Below, piece by piece: positions 6,768-38,303 of a stretch of 64,000 bases of DNA (position 1 is the first letter of the stretch; every line of letters starts with the position of its first letter). The notes below the pieces were generated by a model. That model saw only the letters and a list, made by a program, of their open reading frames with translations. It was not told where the DNA came from and ran no database searches. The stretch comes from Saprospiraceae bacterium. GTDB lineage: Bacteria; Bacteroidota; Bacteroidia; Chitinophagales; Saprospiraceae. Position numbers and translations under genes: made by a program. The stretch covers positions 1-64,000 of the forward strand of contig JAHDCZ010000004.1 in assembly GCA_020629615.1 (NCBI GenBank), read 5' to 3'.

Positions 6768-7676
6768 TTACGCTGTGATTTGTACTTTGAGTAGATTATC
6801 AACAAAGTCTATGAGTTGCTTTGTTCCTTTAAATGCTTGATAGTTTGCATTGTCTGTTTGATTCAATTGTATCACTTGCATCCCGGACAAGAGGACTTCT
6901 GCGTTTCCTACACGAGAGGTTAGTTGGTCAATATATTTTTCTAAATCTTTATTGGACAAACTGTCATTGACCATGGTAAAAACAAAATCAGGTTTAGAAA
7001 TTCTACATCCATCAATAACATCATCTAGTGGGATGCCAATTCCAACATTGACCACTCGCATTCCTTTTTCTTTTAAGATATAGTGTAGATACAATAAACT
7101 TAATTCGTGATTTTCGCCTTCCGGCAAATAGATAAGGAACTTAGGATTATTTACTTCGTTACGTGATTCTTTGATTCGATCTATCGCGTTGATCGTTTTT
7201 CTACGTACAACATTGCTCACAAAGTGTTCGTGTACACTTTTAATGGATCCTGACATCCACATCATTCCTAACTTATCTAGCAAGGGGTAAATCACATGAT
7301 TCATCACATGAAGAAATCCTTTTTGCGTGATGTACTTGTCAAGTATCTTGGAAAATTTACTTTCATTAAGTTCCAAAACACATAAAGTAAGAGCGTCTAA
7401 TTGATAATCCTCGAATGAAGAATTTATCTCGGTATATTCGGCTACCTTTTGCCTAATTTCTTTATTGCTTAGTGCGGCAATTTTAGATATCCGATATCCT
7501 TTTTTGTTGAGAAAAGCAATATTTAATATTTGCTTGAGATCCTCATCTAAGTAATATCTGATATTTGTTTGAGTTCGTTTCGGTTGAATAATTCCATATC
7601 GCTTCTCCCATATACGTAGCGTGTGAGCTTTCACACCCGACAGCTTTTCAAGATCCTTTATGGAATAAATAATCAT
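6768..7676 (-). CDS. MerR-family regulator with cobalamin-binding domain (CarH/LitR-like)
   Basis: Residues 1-70 form a MerR winged-helix DNA-binding domain (YSIKDLEKLSGVKAHTLRIW, EKRYGIIQP). Residues 85-165 match the helical bundle of B12-dependent regulators, with Trp140, Glu150 and His151 in the Wx9EH arrangement. Residues 178-300 form a B12-binding Rossmann domain, with His190 (GENHEL) in the position of the lower axial cobalt ligand. In CarH and LitR these residues bind adenosylcobalamin and sense light. I infer a repressor responding to B12 or light. It is divergent from bshA with 128 bases between, and that gap contains the palindrome AAGCGCTT. No carotenoid or photolyase gene is in view. 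Confidence 0.88.
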   Translation of the reverse strand: MIIYSIKDLEKLSGVKAHTLRIWEKRYGIIQPKRTQTNIRYYLDEDLKQILNIAFLNKKGYRISKIAALSNKEIRQKVAEYTEINSSFEDYQLDALTLCVLELNESKFSKILDKYITQKGFLHVMNHVIYPLLDKLGMMWMSGSIKSVHEHFVSNVVRRKTINAIDRIKESRNEVNNPKFLIYLPEGENHELSLLYLHYILKEKGMRVVNVGIGIPLDDVIDGCRISKPDFVFTMVNDSLSNKDLEKYIDQLTSRVGNAEVLLSGMQVIQLNQTDNANYQAFKGTKQLIDFVDNLLKVQITA

Positions 7677-29783: not shown

Positions 29784-30323
29784 ATGATCGAAACTTTAAT
29801 TTCTTCCCGTACACGAATAAAGCTGCTGTTAAAGTTCTTTTTGAACAGTAATGCCACTGCCTATTTAAGGGGGTTAGAATCTGAATTTGGGGAATCGACA
29901 AATTCCATTCGTCTTGAGCTAAATCGTTTTGAAAAAGCTGGAATGCTCAAGTCTTTTTTCAAAGGAAATAAAAAAATATTTACGGCAAACACTGACCATC
30001 CACTTTACAAAGAAGTAAACAGTATTGTTCTTAAATATTTAGGGTTTGATCAAATTATTGAAAACGTAATCAAACGTTTAGGTAAGGTTGAAAAAGTATT
30101 CATTACTGGGGATTTTGCCATGGGAAAGGATAGTCCTATTATTGATTTAGTATTTGTAGGAGATATAGATAAGAATTACTTAGTTGAGCTTGTTGGAAAA
30201 GTAGAAAAGCTCATTAAAAGGAAATTGAGATACTTGCATTATATTACTTCAGTTGACGCTGAGAACTTCTTATCTCAATCAAATGAAAAGAGTTTATTGT
30301 TGTGGAAAAATGATGAGGAATGA
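29784..30323 (+). CDS. Winged-helix protein with degenerate nucleotidyltransferase-like domain
   Basis: Residues 1-70 form a winged helix of ArsR/MarR type (RIKLLLKFFL, YLRGLESEFGESTNSIRLEL, KAGMLKSFFKGNKKIF). Residues 100-170 resemble a minimal nucleotidyltransferase (FITGDFAMGKDSPIIDLVFV), but the usual GS is GD and only one Asp of the D-x-D pair remains, so catalysis is doubtful. I know this family from its regular place directly before UpxY-type antiterminators in Bacteroidota polysaccharide loci. I infer a regulatory role. Its stop overlaps the next start (ATGA). Confidence 0.75.
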   Translation: MIETLISSRTRIKLLLKFFLNSNATAYLRGLESEFGESTNSIRLELNRFEKAGMLKSFFKGNKKIFTANTDHPLYKEVNSIVLKYLGFDQIIENVIKRLGKVEKVFITGDFAMGKDSPIIDLVFVGDIDKNYLVELVGKVEKLIKRKLRYLHYITSVDAENFLSQSNEKSLLLWKNDEE

Positions 30324-30856
30324 TAACACCAAGCAATAGCTCGAATAACAAACAGTGGTATGCTGTTAAAGTAAAATACAAATGTGAAAAATTGGTAAGG
30401 GATCGTTTATCTGCCAAAGAAATTCATAGCTACGTTCCTTTACTTAAAACGACAAAAATCTATTCCTCAAAACGTAAGGTTGTTGAAACTCCCTTAATTC
30501 ATTCTTTCGTATTTGTATATATTTCTATGGCAGAAAACATCAAAGTGTTACAAACGCTTCATGTTTATGATTTTCTGAAAATTGGTAATGAGATTATGCC
30601 GATTAGAGATGATGAAATGTCTCTACTGAAACAAGTTGTTGGTGAATTTACAAATGTGGAGGCTCAAGAAAAATCACTAATAATTGGTGAAAGTGTTGAG
30701 ATCATCAGGGGAAACTTAACTGGACTGAAAGGTATCCTTGTTGAACAGAAAAACAAAAATGAATTCATAGTTGACTTACCATCGTTTAGTATTCAACTAC
30801 GAATTGAAATTAATAAGGCTTTTTTAAGGCCTACTTCAAACAGAGTATTGGTTTAA
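30320..30856 (+). CDS. UpxY/NusG-family transcription antiterminator
   Basis: The 178-residue protein has a NusG N-terminal domain (QWYAVKVKYKCEKLVRDRL, LIHSFVFVYI) and a C-terminal KOW-like domain (VEIIRGNLTGLKGILVEQKN). In Bacteroides, UpxY proteins load on RNA polymerase at the leader of their own capsule operon and let it read through the long operon. Its place at the head of the sugar genes fits that role. The leader directly downstream contains strong alternative hairpins. It is coupled by ATGA overlap to the preceding gene. Confidence 0.88.
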   Translation: MITPSNSSNNKQWYAVKVKYKCEKLVRDRLSAKEIHSYVPLLKTTKIYSSKRKVVETPLIHSFVFVYISMAENIKVLQTLHVYDFLKIGNEIMPIRDDEMSLLKQVVGEFTNVEAQEKSLIIGESVEIIRGNLTGLKGILVEQKNKNEFIVDLPSFSIQLRIEINKAFLRPTSNRVLV

Positions 30857-30884
30857 ACAATACTCGAATACCTTTTTTAGACCC

Positions 30885-30914
30885 TAAGTCGCTCCGACTT
30901 ATTGACGGCGGAGC
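30885..30914 (+). promoter_or_regulatory. Leader with two mutually exclusive hairpins after upxY
   Basis: Hairpin A is a perfect 7-base stem: TAAGTCG (30885-30891), loop CTC, CGACTTA (30895-30901). Hairpin B pairs GCTCCG (30891-30896) with CGGAGC (30909-30914). B uses the loop and the inner right arm of A, so only one can form at a time. No T-run follows, so neither is a standard terminator. The position between the antiterminator gene and the sugar genes suggests a pause or recruitment site. Confidence 0.45.
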
Positions 30915-30935
30915 CTTATCAAAAATATAATTAAT

Positions 30936-31988
30936 ATGAATAATGAAAATATTCTTGTAACTGGAGGTGCTGGTTTTATTGGTTCAGAGCTGGTCAGACA
31001 ATTAGTCAAGTTAAGCCATGTGAATGTGATTAATTTTGACAAGCTTACCTATGCTGGCAATCTAGAAAACTTGAAGAGTATTGAAAATTTGGAAAATTAT
31101 ACTTTCGTTAAAGGGGATATCTGTGATGAAAAACAACTTGCTCAGGTTTTTATAGACCATGATATTACCAAAGTAATTCATTTAGCTGCAGAAAGTCATG
31201 TCGATCGTTCAATTACAGACCCTTTGTTATTCGTAAGAACAAATTTAATTGGCACTGCATCATTATTAAATGCTGCGAAAATTTACTGGAAAGGTGATTA
31301 TGCAAATAAACTATTTTTTCATGTTTCAACAGATGAAGTATATGGATCTCTAGAGATGGGTAGTGAATTATTTACAGAAAAAACTTCGTATGACCCTAGA
31401 AGTCCATATTCGGCTTCAAAAGCTGGCTCGGACCATTTGGTAAGATCTTTTTATCATACATATCAGTTTCCTGTGGTTATAAGTAACTGCTCCAACAATT
31501 ACGGTCCTTTTCAATTTCCAGAAAAACTGGTACCTCTTTGTATTAATAACATTTTAAATAATAAACCATTACCAATTTATGGCAAAGGTGAAAACGTGAG
31601 AGATTGGCTCTACGTTGGAGATCACGCTGATGCGATATTAACTATTCTAAAAGATGGCCAAATAGGTGAAACCTATAATATAGGCGGCCATAATGAGTGG
31701 TCAAATTTGGATTTAGTTAAGGTTATTTGTAGTACAATGGATGACAAGCTCAATCGCCCAAAGGGTGAAAGCGAAAAACTAATTACTTTCGTAAAAGATA
31801 GAGCTGGTCATGATTTAAGATATGCAATTGACTCTTCAAAAATTCAAAATGAATTGGGTTGGACGCCAAAATTTCAATTTGGAGAAGGCATTAAAAAAAC
31901 AATTGATTGGTATTTGAGCGAAACAGAATGGCTTGAAAACGTTAGTTCTGGGGATTATAAAACATATTACGAAAACCAATACGGTTAA
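30936..31988 (+). CDS. rfbB: dTDP-glucose 4,6-dehydratase RfbB (RmlB)
   Basis: RfbB converts dTDP-glucose to dTDP-4-keto-6-deoxyglucose. The 350-residue extended SDR protein has the Rossmann motif TGGAGFIGSELVRQL, the catalytic STDEVYGSLE, the YSASKAGSDHLVRS motif with Tyr and Lys, and NCSNNYGPFQFPEKLVPL, all diagnostic of RmlB. The length is usual. Neither RmlA nor RmlC/RmlD is in the window, so the dTDP-sugar must be started and finished by genes elsewhere or downstream. Confidence 0.94.
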   Translation: MNNENILVTGGAGFIGSELVRQLVKLSHVNVINFDKLTYAGNLENLKSIENLENYTFVKGDICDEKQLAQVFIDHDITKVIHLAAESHVDRSITDPLLFVRTNLIGTASLLNAAKIYWKGDYANKLFFHVSTDEVYGSLEMGSELFTEKTSYDPRSPYSASKAGSDHLVRSFYHTYQFPVVISNCSNNYGPFQFPEKLVPLCINNILNNKPLPIYGKGENVRDWLYVGDHADAILTILKDGQIGETYNIGGHNEWSNLDLVKVICSTMDDKLNRPKGESEKLITFVKDRAGHDLRYAIDSSKIQNELGWTPKFQFGEGIKKTIDWYLSETEWLENVSSGDYKTYYENQYG

Positions 31989-34231: not shown

Positions 34232-35539
34232 ATGAAAATTGCCGTAGTGGGTACTGGGTATGTTGGATTAGTTTCTGGAACTTGTTTTGCAGAAACAGGT
34301 AATGATGTAACCTGTATAGATATCGATAAAGAAAAGGTTGAATTAATGAATTCTGGAGTAGTTCCGATTTATGAACCTGGGCTGAATATCCTTTTTGACA
34401 GAAATACTAAACAAGGACGATTAAAATTCACAACGTCGTTAACAAACGGAATTAAAGATGCCAAAATCATTTTCTTGGCCCTCCCTACTCCACCTGGTGC
34501 AGATGGATCTGCCGATTTATCATTTGTTTTAAAAGTAGCAGATGATTTATCTAGAATGATTACACGCTACACGGTAATTGTTGACAAAAGCACGGTACCT
34601 GTAGGGACCTCGGAAAAAGTACATAATGTCTTAGGAAAAAATTTAGATTCAGATCTTTTTGATGTTGTTTCCAATCCTGAATTTTTGCGTGAGGGAGTTG
34701 CAGTAGATGACTTTATGAAACCAGATCGTGTCGTAATAGGTACAACTTCGGAAAAAGCCAAATCACTAATGAACAAGTTGTATGAGCCCTATGTAAGACA
34801 AGGCAATCCAATCTTGTTTATGGATGAGCGTTCTGCGGAAATGACAAAATATGCAGCTAATTCTTTCTTAGCAACGAAGATAACTTTCATGAATGAAGTC
34901 GCAAATCTATGCGAAAAGGTTGGTGCTAATGTTGATATGGTCAGAAGAGGAATTGGTAGCGACACGAGAATAGGTAAACGATTTTTATTTCCTGGAATCG
35001 GATATGGAGGATCATGTTTTCCCAAGGATGTAAAAGCTTTAGCAAAGACTGCTCTCGAAAATAACTACGATTTTCGTATTCTCAATTCCGTTATGGCCGT
35101 AAATGAGGACCAAAAAGTAATCTTAGCCAACAGAGTAATAAAAACTTTCAATGGTAATTTGAAAGGCAAGAAAATTGCGGTATGGGGATTAGCTTTTAAG
35201 CCAAACACAGATGACATTAGAGAAGCGCCTGCATTATATACCATAGAAAAACTATTGGAAAAAGGAGCTACAATTTCTGTTTATGATCCAGAGGCAATGA
35301 ATAATGTAAAAGACGTTTTTGGAGACAAAGTCACTTATGTAAATGATCAATACGAAGCTTTAATTGATGCTGAAGTATTGGTCATCTGTACCGAATGGTC
35401 TTTATTTAGATCTCCAGATTTTAATAAAATTAAGTCTGCAATGAGTTCAAATTACATTTTTGATGGACGGAATCTATACGACCCTAAAGCGATGAAAGGA
35501 TTAGAATTTCATTATGAAAGTATCGGAAGGCCATCGTGA
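34232..35539 (+). CDS. ugd: UDP-glucose 6-dehydrogenase
   Basis: Ugd oxidises UDP-glucose to UDP-glucuronate using two NAD. The 435-residue protein has the Rossmann motif VGTGYVGLVSGTCFAETGN, ALPTPPGADGSADLSFV, STVPVGTSEKV and the catalytic cysteine in GYGGSCFPKDVKAL. The C-terminal domain includes VWGLAFKPNTDDIREAPA. The length is normal. Its stop overlaps the GTG start of cysC (GTGA). Confidence 0.95.
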   Translation: MKIAVVGTGYVGLVSGTCFAETGNDVTCIDIDKEKVELMNSGVVPIYEPGLNILFDRNTKQGRLKFTTSLTNGIKDAKIIFLALPTPPGADGSADLSFVLKVADDLSRMITRYTVIVDKSTVPVGTSEKVHNVLGKNLDSDLFDVVSNPEFLREGVAVDDFMKPDRVVIGTTSEKAKSLMNKLYEPYVRQGNPILFMDERSAEMTKYAANSFLATKITFMNEVANLCEKVGANVDMVRRGIGSDTRIGKRFLFPGIGYGGSCFPKDVKALAKTALENNYDFRILNSVMAVNEDQKVILANRVIKTFNGNLKGKKIAVWGLAFKPNTDDIREAPALYTIEKLLEKGATISVYDPEAMNNVKDVFGDKVTYVNDQYEALIDAEVLVICTEWSLFRSPDFNKIKSAMSSNYIFDGRNLYDPKAMKGLEFHYESIGRPS

Positions 35540-36126
35540 AAAATATTTTCCCCGATCATGGTTTCTTAATGGCTGAAAATTTCGAACAGCTATTAAATCA
35601 AAAAGCTAAGGTTCTCTGGTTAACTGGATTATCAGGCTCAGGAAAATCAACTATTGCCAAATCCGTAGAACAAAAATTATTTGCATTAGGATACGCTGCA
35701 AAGGTCTTAGATGGGGATAATATTCGCACTGGGATTTCAAACAATCTAGGTTTTAGTTTGAGGGATAGAGAGGAAAACATAAGAAGAATTTCCGAAGTGG
35801 CTAAGTTGTTTTTACAAACTGGAATCACAACTATTTGTTCCTTTGTTAGTCCTACCCTAAATATTCGCCGAAAGGCCAAAGAAATCATAGGAAAAGAAAA
35901 CTTTTTAGAAATATACATTAATGCATCTCTACAGGTTTGTGAAGAAAGAGATGTAAAGGGATTATATCAAATGGCTCGAGATGGAAAAATTAAAGATTTC
36001 ACCGGTATCAGCTCTCCTTATGAAGCTCCTGTCAATCCAGACTTAACGATTGACTCCGAATCAAGCCCAATAGAAAAATCATCATTAGATATTGTTAATT
36101 TTTTGATCAAGTCAAATGAACTATAG
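35536..36126 (+). CDS. cysC: Adenylylsulfate (APS) kinase CysC
   Basis: CysC phosphorylates APS to PAPS, the donor for sulfation. The 196-residue protein has the P-loop WLTGLSGSGKSTIAKSV, the substrate loop VLDGDNIRTGISNNLGFS, the RRISEVAKLFLQTG helix and FTGISSPYEAPVNPDL, all canonical. The start is GTG, overlapping the ugd stop; the residues KNIFPDHGF right after it match family N-termini, so it is preferred over the internal ATG. It overlaps cysD by 11 bases. Its presence as a separate gene in a polysaccharide locus points to PAPS supply. Confidence 0.94.
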   Translation: MKNIFPDHGFLMAENFEQLLNQKAKVLWLTGLSGSGKSTIAKSVEQKLFALGYAAKVLDGDNIRTGISNNLGFSLRDREENIRRISEVAKLFLQTGITTICSFVSPTLNIRRKAKEIIGKENFLEIYINASLQVCEERDVKGLYQMARDGKIKDFTGISSPYEAPVNPDLTIDSESSPIEKSSLDIVNFLIKSNEL

Positions 36127-37018
36127 TTTAAGTCATTTAAAAGAATTAGAGTCAGAGTCCATTTTTATTCTAAGAGAAGTTGCGGCGCAATTCGAAAATT
36201 CTGTCATACTTTTCTCCGGAGGAAAAGATAGTATTTTAATGACCTATCTCGCGGTAAAAGCTTTTTACCCTGCGAAAGTTCCGTTTCAATTGTTACACGT
36301 TGATACTGGTCATAATTTTCAAGAAACCCTTGACTATAGAGACAACCTTGTTAAAGAGTACGGACTCAAATTAAAAGTAGGTTATGTACAGGATGCAATT
36401 GATAATGGATACGTAAAGGAAGAGAGCGGAATTAATGCGAGTAGGAATGGTCTGCAAATCTACACCTTGTTGGATGAGCTAGAAAAAGGAAAATACGACG
36501 CTGCATTAGGCGGAGGAAGAAGGGATGAAGAAAAGGCTCGGGCAAAAGAACGTTTTTTTTCGCATCGGGATGAATTTGGTCAATGGGATCCTAAAAACCA
36601 ACGTCCTGAATTATGGAATATATTTAATGGCAGAAAACAACATGGGGAGCACTTTAGGGTTTTTCCTATTTCAAACTGGACGGAATTAGACGTCTGGCAA
36701 TATTTAGCTCAAGAAAAAGTTCCACTTCCGTCATTATACTTTGCGCATGAAAGGCCAGTTATTGAAAGAGATGGAATTCTTTTAGCGCACTCACCATTTA
36801 TCCCACTTAAAGATTCGGAAAAAGTATTTCAAGAAATGGTGCGTTGTAGAACTATTGGAGATGTCACTTGCACCGGAGTCTGGAAATCCAATGCTAAAAC
36901 AATTGACGAAATCATTCAGGAAGTAGCAACTTCAAGAATGACGGAAAGAGGAGGTCGATCAGATGATAAAAGAAGTGAAACCTCGATGGAGGATCGAAAA
37001 AAAGAAGGATATTTTTAA
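36116..37018 (+). CDS. cysD: Sulfate adenylyltransferase subunit 2 CysD
   Basis: CysD carries the adenylyl transfer site that makes APS from sulfate and ATP, activated by the GTPase CysN. The 300-residue protein has the PP-loop SVILFSGGKDSILMTYLA, LLHVDTGHNFQETLDYRD, GGGRRDEEKARAKERFFS and the C-terminal RGGRSDDKRSETSMEDRK. All are hallmark CysD features. It sits between cysC and cysN, 19 bases before cysN. Confidence 0.96.
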   Translation: MNYSLSHLKELESESIFILREVAAQFENSVILFSGGKDSILMTYLAVKAFYPAKVPFQLLHVDTGHNFQETLDYRDNLVKEYGLKLKVGYVQDAIDNGYVKEESGINASRNGLQIYTLLDELEKGKYDAALGGGRRDEEKARAKERFFSHRDEFGQWDPKNQRPELWNIFNGRKQHGEHFRVFPISNWTELDVWQYLAQEKVPLPSLYFAHERPVIERDGILLAHSPFIPLKDSEKVFQEMVRCRTIGDVTCTGVWKSNAKTIDEIIQEVATSRMTERGGRSDDKRSETSMEDRKKEGYF

Positions 37019-37037
37019 CCTCTACTCTATTTAAAAG

Positions 37038-38303
37038 ATGTCAAATAAAGAACGCGAAACTGAACTCTTAAGATTTACTACTGCAGGTTCTGTAGATGAT
37101 GGAAAATCAACATTAATCGGTCGACTGCTCTACGATAGTAAATCAATTTTCCAAGATCAATATGATCAGATTGAAGCCATAAGTGAAAGGCGAGGAGAAG
37201 AAGGTGTAAATTTGGCTTTGCTTACCGATGGTTTGAAAGCAGAGCGAGAACAAGGAATTACAATTGACGTAGCCTATCGCTACTTTAGCACACCGAAAAG
37301 AAAATTTATTATAGCGGATACCCCTGGACACATTCAATATACTAGAAATATGGTGACGGGTGCTTCAACCGCGAATGTTGCCTTATTACTAGTAGATGCT
37401 AGAAAAGGAGTATCAGAACAAACCAAGCGTCATGCAATAATTGCTTCATTGCTAAAAATTCCGCATGTTGTAGTTTGCATTAACAAGATGGACCTTGTTG
37501 ATTATGAAGAAGAAGCTTACAATAAAATACGTTCAGATTTTAAAGATTTTGCAACCAAGCTTGATGTAACCGATGTGAGTTTTATTCCACTATCCGCTTT
37601 AAAAGGAGACAATGTTGTTGATCGTAGTCAAAACATGGATTGGTACAATGGAACTACATTAATGTACTATTTAGAAAGCGTTCATATTTCAAGTGATCAT
37701 AATTTTATTGACTGTCGGTTTCCTGTTCAATATGTTATAAGACCGTATAGTGATGAATATCATGATTTCAGAGGGTATGCAGGAAGAATTGATGGAGGAG
37801 TGTTTAAAATAGGTGATACTGTTGTTGCATTACCAAGTGGGTTTTCCACAACAATAAAGGCTATTCATAGTTTTGATGGTGAATTGGCAGAAGCGCATCC
37901 CCCTCAATCAGTGACATTTACATTAAATGATGAAATAGACATAAGTAGGGGTGATATGTTGGTGCGTCCAAATAATCAACCAGATTCTAGTCAAAACATT
38001 GAGGTGATGTTATGCTGGTTTGATCATAATAGACCTTTAAAACTAAAAGGTAAATATTCACTTAAGCATACTACCCGTGAGGTTCGGTGCTTGGTTCAAG
38101 AAATTAAATACAAACTAGATATAAATACCTTACATCGTATTCAAGATAATTTTAGCATTGAATCAAATGACATTGCAAGAGTTTCAATACGAACAACCAA
38201 GCCATTATTTGTAGATAAATATTCTAAAAACAGAAATACGGGCAGCATCATACTTGTAGATGAGCAAACAAATAATACCGTGGCTGCGGGAATGATAATT
38301 TAA
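37038..38303 (+). CDS. cysN: Sulfate adenylyltransferase subunit 1 CysN (GTPase)
   Basis: CysN is the GTPase partner of CysD. The 421-residue protein has G1 (AGSVDDGKSTLIGRLL), a G2 region (EREQGITIDVAYRYFST), G3 (DTPGH) and G4 (NKMD). EF-Tu-like beta domains follow (PVQYVIRPYSDEYHDFRGYA). It stops without a fused CysC domain, which matches the separate cysC upstream. The next gene follows after 28 bases and starts a new set of sugar enzymes. Confidence 0.95.
   Translation: MSNKERETELLRFTTAGSVDDGKSTLIGRLLYDSKSIFQDQYDQIEAISERRGEEGVNLALLTDGLKAEREQGITIDVAYRYFSTPKRKFIIADTPGHIQYTRNMVTGASTANVALLLVDARKGVSEQTKRHAIIASLLKIPHVVVCINKMDLVDYEEEAYNKIRSDFKDFATKLDVTDVSFIPLSALKGDNVVDRSQNMDWYNGTTLMYYLESVHISSDHNFIDCRFPVQYVIRPYSDEYHDFRGYAGRIDGGVFKIGDTVVALPSGFSTTIKAIHSFDGELAEAHPPQSVTFTLNDEIDISRGDMLVRPNNQPDSSQNIEVMLCWFDHNRPLKLKGKYSLKHTTREVRCLVQEIKYKLDINTLHRIQDNFSIESNDIARVSIRTTKPLFVDKYSKNRNTGSIILVDEQTNNTVAAGMII

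Follow-up and report, generated by a model that had tools for sequence, protein, structure and literature searches.

We describe an element of about 40 nt, lying behind the gene for the NusG-family antiterminator UpxY, that is likely to be the loading site of UpxY and to work in the way the ops/JUMPstart site works for RfaH. The element is real, family-wide and UpxY-associated, and it has structure in RNA and probably also in DNA. The copy from which we start lies in the window, by which we mean the whole 64,000-nucleotide stretch of Saprospiraceae DNA that was analyzed, between upxY and a long sugar operon. Ops-like recruitment sites of NusG paralogues are already known; what is notable here is the uniform code, the position behind upxY and the existence of unlinked copies. 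A literature search, including the available parts of PMC7593976, PMC12691694, PMC12632263, PMC5995543, PMC7819879, PMC12118408 and PMC13114119, found no published UpxY site of this kind. With a consensus and naturally compensated variants, the vague "UpxY leader" becomes a defined, searchable signal. The features of the locus, in window positions, are the following.

30320-30856, + strand: upxY, NusG-family antiterminator gene (NCBIfam NF033644 antiterm_UpxY, 117.4 bits, cut-off 100; Pfam NusG)
30878-30919, + strand: whole element (~40 nt), matched by model R1 at 43.5 bits
30885-30901, + strand: hairpin 1, arms TAAGTCG (30885-30891) and CGACTTA (30895-30901), loop CTC; from the sequence and from covariation in relatives
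30891-30914, + strand: alternative stem, GCTCCG (30891-30896) with CGGAGC (30909-30914); present here, not conserved
30893-30903, + strand: conserved upstream block TCCGACTTATT (family consensus TGCGACTTATC), containing the right arm; from column conservation
30907-30915, + strand: mini-hairpin box GGCGGAGCC (GGC-GGA-GCC); paired in all 91 distinct sequences of alignment A2, with compensated variants in L186, L193 and L184
30917, + strand: predicted pause position (RNA 3' end), a T ten bases past the box's initial G, shared by 88 of 91 sequences and in ops register
30936-31988, + strand: dTDP-glucose 4,6-dehydratase gene (rfbB type), the first behind the element; TIGR01181 above cut-off

After the rfbB-type gene, open reading frames on the same strand run to 62960 (from the ORF list, with Pfam applied to selected genes), and the window has an UpxY-subfamily protein (NF033644) adjoining a polysaccharide operon with sugar genes downstream. 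No upxZ of the Bacteroides type directly follows upxY in the window, the next ORF being the rfbB-type gene at 30936. Among solved structures, RfaH chains were the best matches to the UpxY profile, and the RfaH model TIGR01955 gave the window UpxY 53.5 bits, below its cut-off of 144.5. The AlphaFold model of UpxY (mean pLDDT 80.9) has strands in the C-terminal domain, which decides nothing on the loading site.

Two further observations concern the neighboring genes. A small gene at 29784-30323, whose end overlaps the upxY start by 4 bases, had no Pfam or NCBIfam match at E 0.001; its homologues were found on the upxY strand in 15 of 30 UpxY loci, the window included, and 11 of these lay at most 200 nt from upxY, so the gene is a possible conserved UpxY partner. 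The operon behind the element also encodes an APS kinase, CysD and a CysN-like GTPase (35536-38303), which suggests a sulfated polysaccharide.

Structure and conservation of the element

An earlier note on this DNA had described the two stems as mutually exclusive folds in the leader between upxY and the sugar genes, and had proposed that they form a signal read by UpxY with a switch built in. Both stems are present where it placed them, between upxY and the rfbB-type gene, and they exclude each other because they share 30891, 30895-30896 and the loop. Hairpin 1 is the upstream half of the element, and the downstream half consists of GGCGGAGCC plus TT (30907-30917). The 3' arm of the alternative stem belongs to this second half, a separate conserved box of the type GGCGRAGCC that pairs with itself. 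Computed RNA energies were -5.4 kcal/mol for hairpin 1 and -9.4 kcal/mol for the alternative stem; in prefix folding, hairpin 1 was the minimum until 30914 had been transcribed, and the alternative won afterwards. As a DNA hairpin, the box by itself was only marginally stable (-0.6 kcal/mol, computed). Folding of 30857-30935, which the note had suggested as a check, gave an ordinary energy (z -1.31; 21 of 200 shuffles folded at least as well), and folding energy alone was rejected as support. The window sequence alone would not carry the claim; the excess over chance lies in conservation among relatives. At gathering score, Rfam had no match in the window, and 30300-31000 gave only snoRNA-type chance hits. 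R1 has no other match in the window's genome (79% complete); the window copy itself belongs to the 29 sequences from which R1 was built.

The family layout, counted from the first G of the box as position 0, is a left arm, a loop that often holds CTGC or TTGC, a right arm GACTTATC at -11 to -4, three bases, GGCGAAGCC, one base and a T at +10; in the window, position 0 is 30907 and the T is 30917. Covariation was assessed on alignments A1 (29 sequences) and A2 (97 R1 matches, 91 distinct), and the named structure beat column shuffles on both. In A2, 73.8% of cells were paired compared with 69.7 +/- 0.5 in shuffles, and there were 42 both-side changes compared with 15.9 +/- 3.2, a count reached in 0 of 500 shuffles. 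As counter-evidence, sliding the structure by +1 to +3 columns gave equal or nearly equal numbers of both-side changes (38-55); the same slides paired many fewer cells (39-45%) and scored lower for covariation. Because A2 had been fitted to the model, unfitted sequences were tested too. For 46 unfitted elements with a non-consensus right arm, pairing with their own left flank averaged 4.52, against 3.17 +/- 0.20 with swapped right arms (0 of 2000 permutations as high), and their own right arm paired better than the consensus right arm in 27, equally in 8 and worse in 11. This set was drawn with a loose expression and some probable false elements were kept in it, such as the second L008 entry and L145. 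Clear compensated cases of the hairpin are L017, L024, L029, L030, L067 and L174. The box also varies with its pairing intact, as GCC-GGA-GGC (L186), GAC-GAA-GTC (L193) and AGC-GAA-GCT (L184), and a changed loop, GGC-AGA-GCC, occurs in L003 and L195. The note had asked whether both stems covary in relatives; hairpin 1 does, with compensatory changes beside UpxY genes, and the second stem is unconserved.

Conservation is strong in the right arm (1.1-1.9 bits) and weak in the left arm (0.1-0.9 bit), which is what one would expect of a right arm recognized by its sequence and a left arm needed mainly for pairing. Loop length and sequence vary between elements, and the most conserved parts are the box and the right arm. 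This pattern bears on the reading in which UpxY binds the nascent RNA hairpin only and the box is a mere pause or spacer, as might be modeled on LoaP. LoaP is likewise a NusG paralogue with a leader hairpin before a long operon (the dfn and mln leaders); according to PMC12691694, it requires and binds an RNA hairpin with a UNCG tetraloop, which causes no discernible pause. The covariation of hairpin 1 agrees with such binding, and the loop often holds TGCG, which fits the UNCG pattern (for example in L013). However, the loop in the window is CTC, so that no UNCG tetraloop hairpin is found there, the conserved core is the box behind the stem instead of the loop or left arm, and a sister form (see below) keeps the box, mostly with no stem evident by eye at that place. 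We consider this reading unlikely. An intrinsic terminator or attenuator overridden by UpxY is very improbable: the leader does have GC-rich inverted repeats, and UpxY is described in PMC7819879 as preventing premature termination in leaders, but the box in the window is not followed by a T run, the conserved base there being the single T at +10.

Distribution of the element and its link to UpxY

Among 100 relatives, 62 had an UpxY match (weak NusG-like ones included), and the best 30 UpxY loci were inspected. A pattern for the GGCGRAGCC-type box found it behind upxY in 28 of them, always downstream and on the upxY strand. A 29th locus, L003, was recognized by eye, with GGCAGAGCC behind AGTCGC-TTTTGCT-GCGACT; L021 was the one locus of the 30 with no element behind upxY. 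L030 has two tandem copies behind a single upxY (2064-2187).

An exact scan for GCGACTTATCNNNGGCGRAGCC across 84,980 species (257 billion bases) returned 70 stretches. Their titles name Saprospiraceae, Saprospirales, Lewinellaceae, Lewinella, Haliscomenobacteraceae, Phaeodactylibacter, Flavilitoribacter or Portibacter, and the rest bear broad labels (Chitinophagales, Bacteroidia, Bacteroidetes, Bacteroidota and one Cytophagales). An upxY lies upstream on the same strand, within 0.51 kb, in 41 of the 70, and four of the other 29 have less than 200 bases of upstream sequence. R1 was similarly confined: at E 0.1 it matched 40 of the 100 relatives, all in the window's family, and at E 0.01 it matched 4 of 395 genomes of a phylum sample, again all in that family. 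Four outgroup loci (L201-L204) had no element.

Co-occurrence was counted in 398 family genomes with cut-offs of E 0.05 for R1 and 1e-6 for UpxY. R1 matched in 219 and UpxY in 271; 209 genomes had both, 10 the element only, 62 UpxY only and 117 neither (Fisher p 7e-42, which overstates the independent evidence, as do the other co-occurrence p-values, because the genomes are related). Among the matches listed there were 150 element places: 87 were on the same strand as a listed upxY and 25-544 nt behind it (median 90, match end to match start), 24 were unlinked to a listed upxY (one of them, L173, beside a second upxY), and 39 could not be sorted because the upxY place of their own genome fell outside the listing. 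None of the 150 was near a listed upxY on the opposite strand. Of the 62 genomes with UpxY only, 20 were inspected (L181-L200), and most had no site adjoining upxY. Three of the 20 have a divergent UpxY (L182-L184), and L185 and L191 have less than 165 bases behind upxY. By eye, the element was present in 7 of the 17 non-divergent loci (L186, L187, L189, L193, L194, L195 and L200), and R1 therefore misses real copies.

The same observations make a duplex DNA operator for an ordinary repressor or activator a poor candidate. Palindromic arms and several copies in some genomes would suit an operator, but the left arm changes its sequence without losing complementarity, the orientation relative to the adjacent upxY is single with no opposite-strand case, and the element co-occurs strictly with UpxY; we hold an operator to be highly improbable.

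Copies away from upxY were examined for the genes behind them. There were 28 such element rows, and removal of L173 left 27; L171, a second copy, has an upxY-following element 4.4 kb before it. Polysaccharide-type genes lie behind 21 of the 27 unlinked or second copies:

Wza-type polysaccharide-export protein next (9 of 27): L061, L064, L065, L068, L073, L177, L178, L179, L180
Wzc-type kinase next: L066
ABC-2 transporters next: L063, L165 first copy
Sugar epimerases next: L167, L169, L175, L176
UDP-glucose-type dehydrogenase next: L171
GFO/IDH/MocA oxidoreductase next: L062
Acyl or hexapeptide transferase next: L165 second copy, L067
Glycosyltransferase 808 nt away: L172

Five more precede non-polysaccharide or family-less genes:

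Eco57I-type methylase as next scanned gene, 29 nt away: L070 (G030:C34), near 2887-2927
Eco57I-type methylase as next scanned gene, 1.8 kb away: L168 (G138:C228), near 7434-7475
LytTR next: L072
Integrase 758 nt away: L174
No family for the next gene: L170

L069 belongs to neither group, its first gene having been left out of the Pfam scan, and the gene count leaves out the unlinked exact-pattern loci among L076-L145 as well as the weak R1 matches L071 and L074 (E 0.063 and 0.096); L074 (G041) looks like a chance match within coding DNA. Most assemblies are fragmented, so a few copies may only appear to be unlinked. The best case is G165, where an 8.37-Mb contig has two copies, at 3.636 Mb and 3.646 Mb, the 17 kb around them being free of UpxY genes; a upxY at 4.303 Mb has no adjacent copy, and another UpxY match was counted in this genome with its position not placed. 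In G057, the sole UpxY match is without an adjacent copy and two copies lie on other contigs. The Eco57I-type methylases behind L070 and L168 would widen the UpxY regulon past polysaccharides.

Comparison with ops and a model for UpxY loading

The closest likeness is to RfaH and ops. RfaH is also a NusG paralogue whose leader site serves long polysaccharide operons, unlinked ones included. According to PMC5995543, ops shares with the element a GG at -11/-10, a T at -1 and a small loop closed by a GC stem; that hairpin was seen in the non-template strand of a crystal structure, and the double change C3G+G8C partly restored recruitment. Here, a hairpin-forming box stands in the same pause register (91 of 91 paired, T in 88 of 91), a likeness of shape and register only. 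The sequences differ: the element is GGCGRAGCC-NT, with GGCGGAGCC as its box in the window, whereas ops is GGCGGTAGCGTG, which is not the box in the window, and the loop has three bases (GNA) instead of four. The protein here is UpxY, and the site is often directly behind the regulator gene. JUMPstart contains a stem-loop before ops.

The Bacteroides UpxY/UpxZ systems share the protein subfamily and the operon type. Saba and colleagues reportedly found in 2024 that, in Bacteroides, paused polymerase recruits UpxY via the non-template strand and upstream duplex DNA, together with nascent hairpins. Contact with upstream duplex DNA is also mentioned in PMC12691694. In Bacteroides, upxZ comes after upxY, each protein serves its own locus, and UpxY works on leaders that lie upstream of upxY. 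In contrast, we find one uniform site behind upxY, no upxZ next to it, and unlinked copies.

We propose the following sequence of events. Polymerase leaving upxY would transcribe hairpin 1, which would fold while emerging, and would then pause with the RNA 3' end near T30917. The pause would expose GGCGGAGCC in the non-template strand, where a mini-hairpin with a GNA loop could form, and would set the block TCCGACTTATT just upstream of the bubble. UpxY may recognize this paused complex and board the polymerase, helped by the hairpin and the upstream block, and could then carry it through the long sugar operon from 30936 by antitermination. Since the site lies after upxY, upxY itself would be transcribed without needing UpxY, and since the same site fronts unlinked polysaccharide operons in relatives, one UpxY may serve several operons.

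The spacing from the RNA stem to the predicted 3' end is 14 nt in the family layout and 16 in the window, a distance at which the hairpin would have reached the exit channel and the polymerase would still enclose the box. To judge from the register, recognition of the box probably involves DNA within the transcription bubble and not RNA alone. At the pause, the RNA would presumably fold only as hairpin 1, and the alternative stem would become possible later. A two-state RNA switch, in which a factor chooses between hairpin 1 and GCTCCG/CGGAGC, is accordingly hard to credit: the window does have both stems, and the second, when fully transcribed, is the more stable, but the box would still be within the polymerase at the predicted pause, and across 97 elements the longest loop-to-box run averaged 4.24, against 4.20 +/- 0.03 with swapped partners, runs of at least 6 occurring in 13 of the 97, the window among them. 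Of the two parts of the earlier proposal, then, the built-in switch falls away, and a signal read by UpxY is very likely, given the family-wide conservation, covariation, co-occurrence with UpxY and polysaccharide targets.

A sister form in other Bacteroidota

In a class-wide sample of 30 UpxY loci, several had a different block before the same box; GGCGGTAGC was absent from the flanks of all 30. This sister form adjoins UpxY genes of other Bacteroidota families. Of 198 class genomes, 55 contained the pattern GACTGAN{2,6}GCGRAGCY, at 81 places in all; part of these are chance, since the control, the pattern reversed, matched 22 times (in 21 genomes), and several of the sequences resemble coding DNA. 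Twenty-three of the 81 places were at most 1 kb from an UpxY above the cut-off, all on the UpxY strand, 10 upstream and 13 downstream. By genome, 41 had both the pattern and UpxY, 14 the pattern only, 23 UpxY only and 120 neither (Fisher p 1.3e-14). In 28 copies chosen for TGNGACTGA, the linker was 3, 4 or 5 bases long in 20, 7 and 1, respectively, and the second base past the box was T in 27. Three members of the window's family with a divergent UpxY (L182, L183 and L184) have the sister form within the fetched locus; in L184 only was it seen right behind upxY.

On balance, we lean toward a broader reading in two parts: that the loading code of many Bacteroidota UpxY proteins is a shared ancestral one, TGNGACT-N5..7-GGCGRAGCY-NT(A/G), which is built around a GNA mini-hairpin in the non-template strand and would be a counterpart of ops in another phylum; and that one UpxY in Saprospiraceae reaches several unlinked surface-polysaccharide operons, and a few others such as Eco57I-type methylases, in trans by way of copies of this site, which would make it an RfaH-like regulon master and not a locus-specific factor.

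In the class sample, G853 has GACTGACCTGGCGAAGCC six times, always on contigs other than that of its UpxY, and these copies are a candidate trans regulon. Six records of a plasmid collection have UpxY (one Spirosoma, two Bacteroides and three Phocaeicola), and none of the six contains the GACTGA or TGCGACT form. Three of them, all Phocaeicola massiliensis, have a GNA-loop mini-hairpin at most 60 nt upstream of the UpxY match: CGCGTAGCG in L270, GGCGAAGCC in L271 and CGCGAAGCG in L273. These are perhaps the Bacteroidales counterpart of the element, and we offer them as a lead only. In L271, a stem ACCTG/CAGGT precedes the mini-hairpin.
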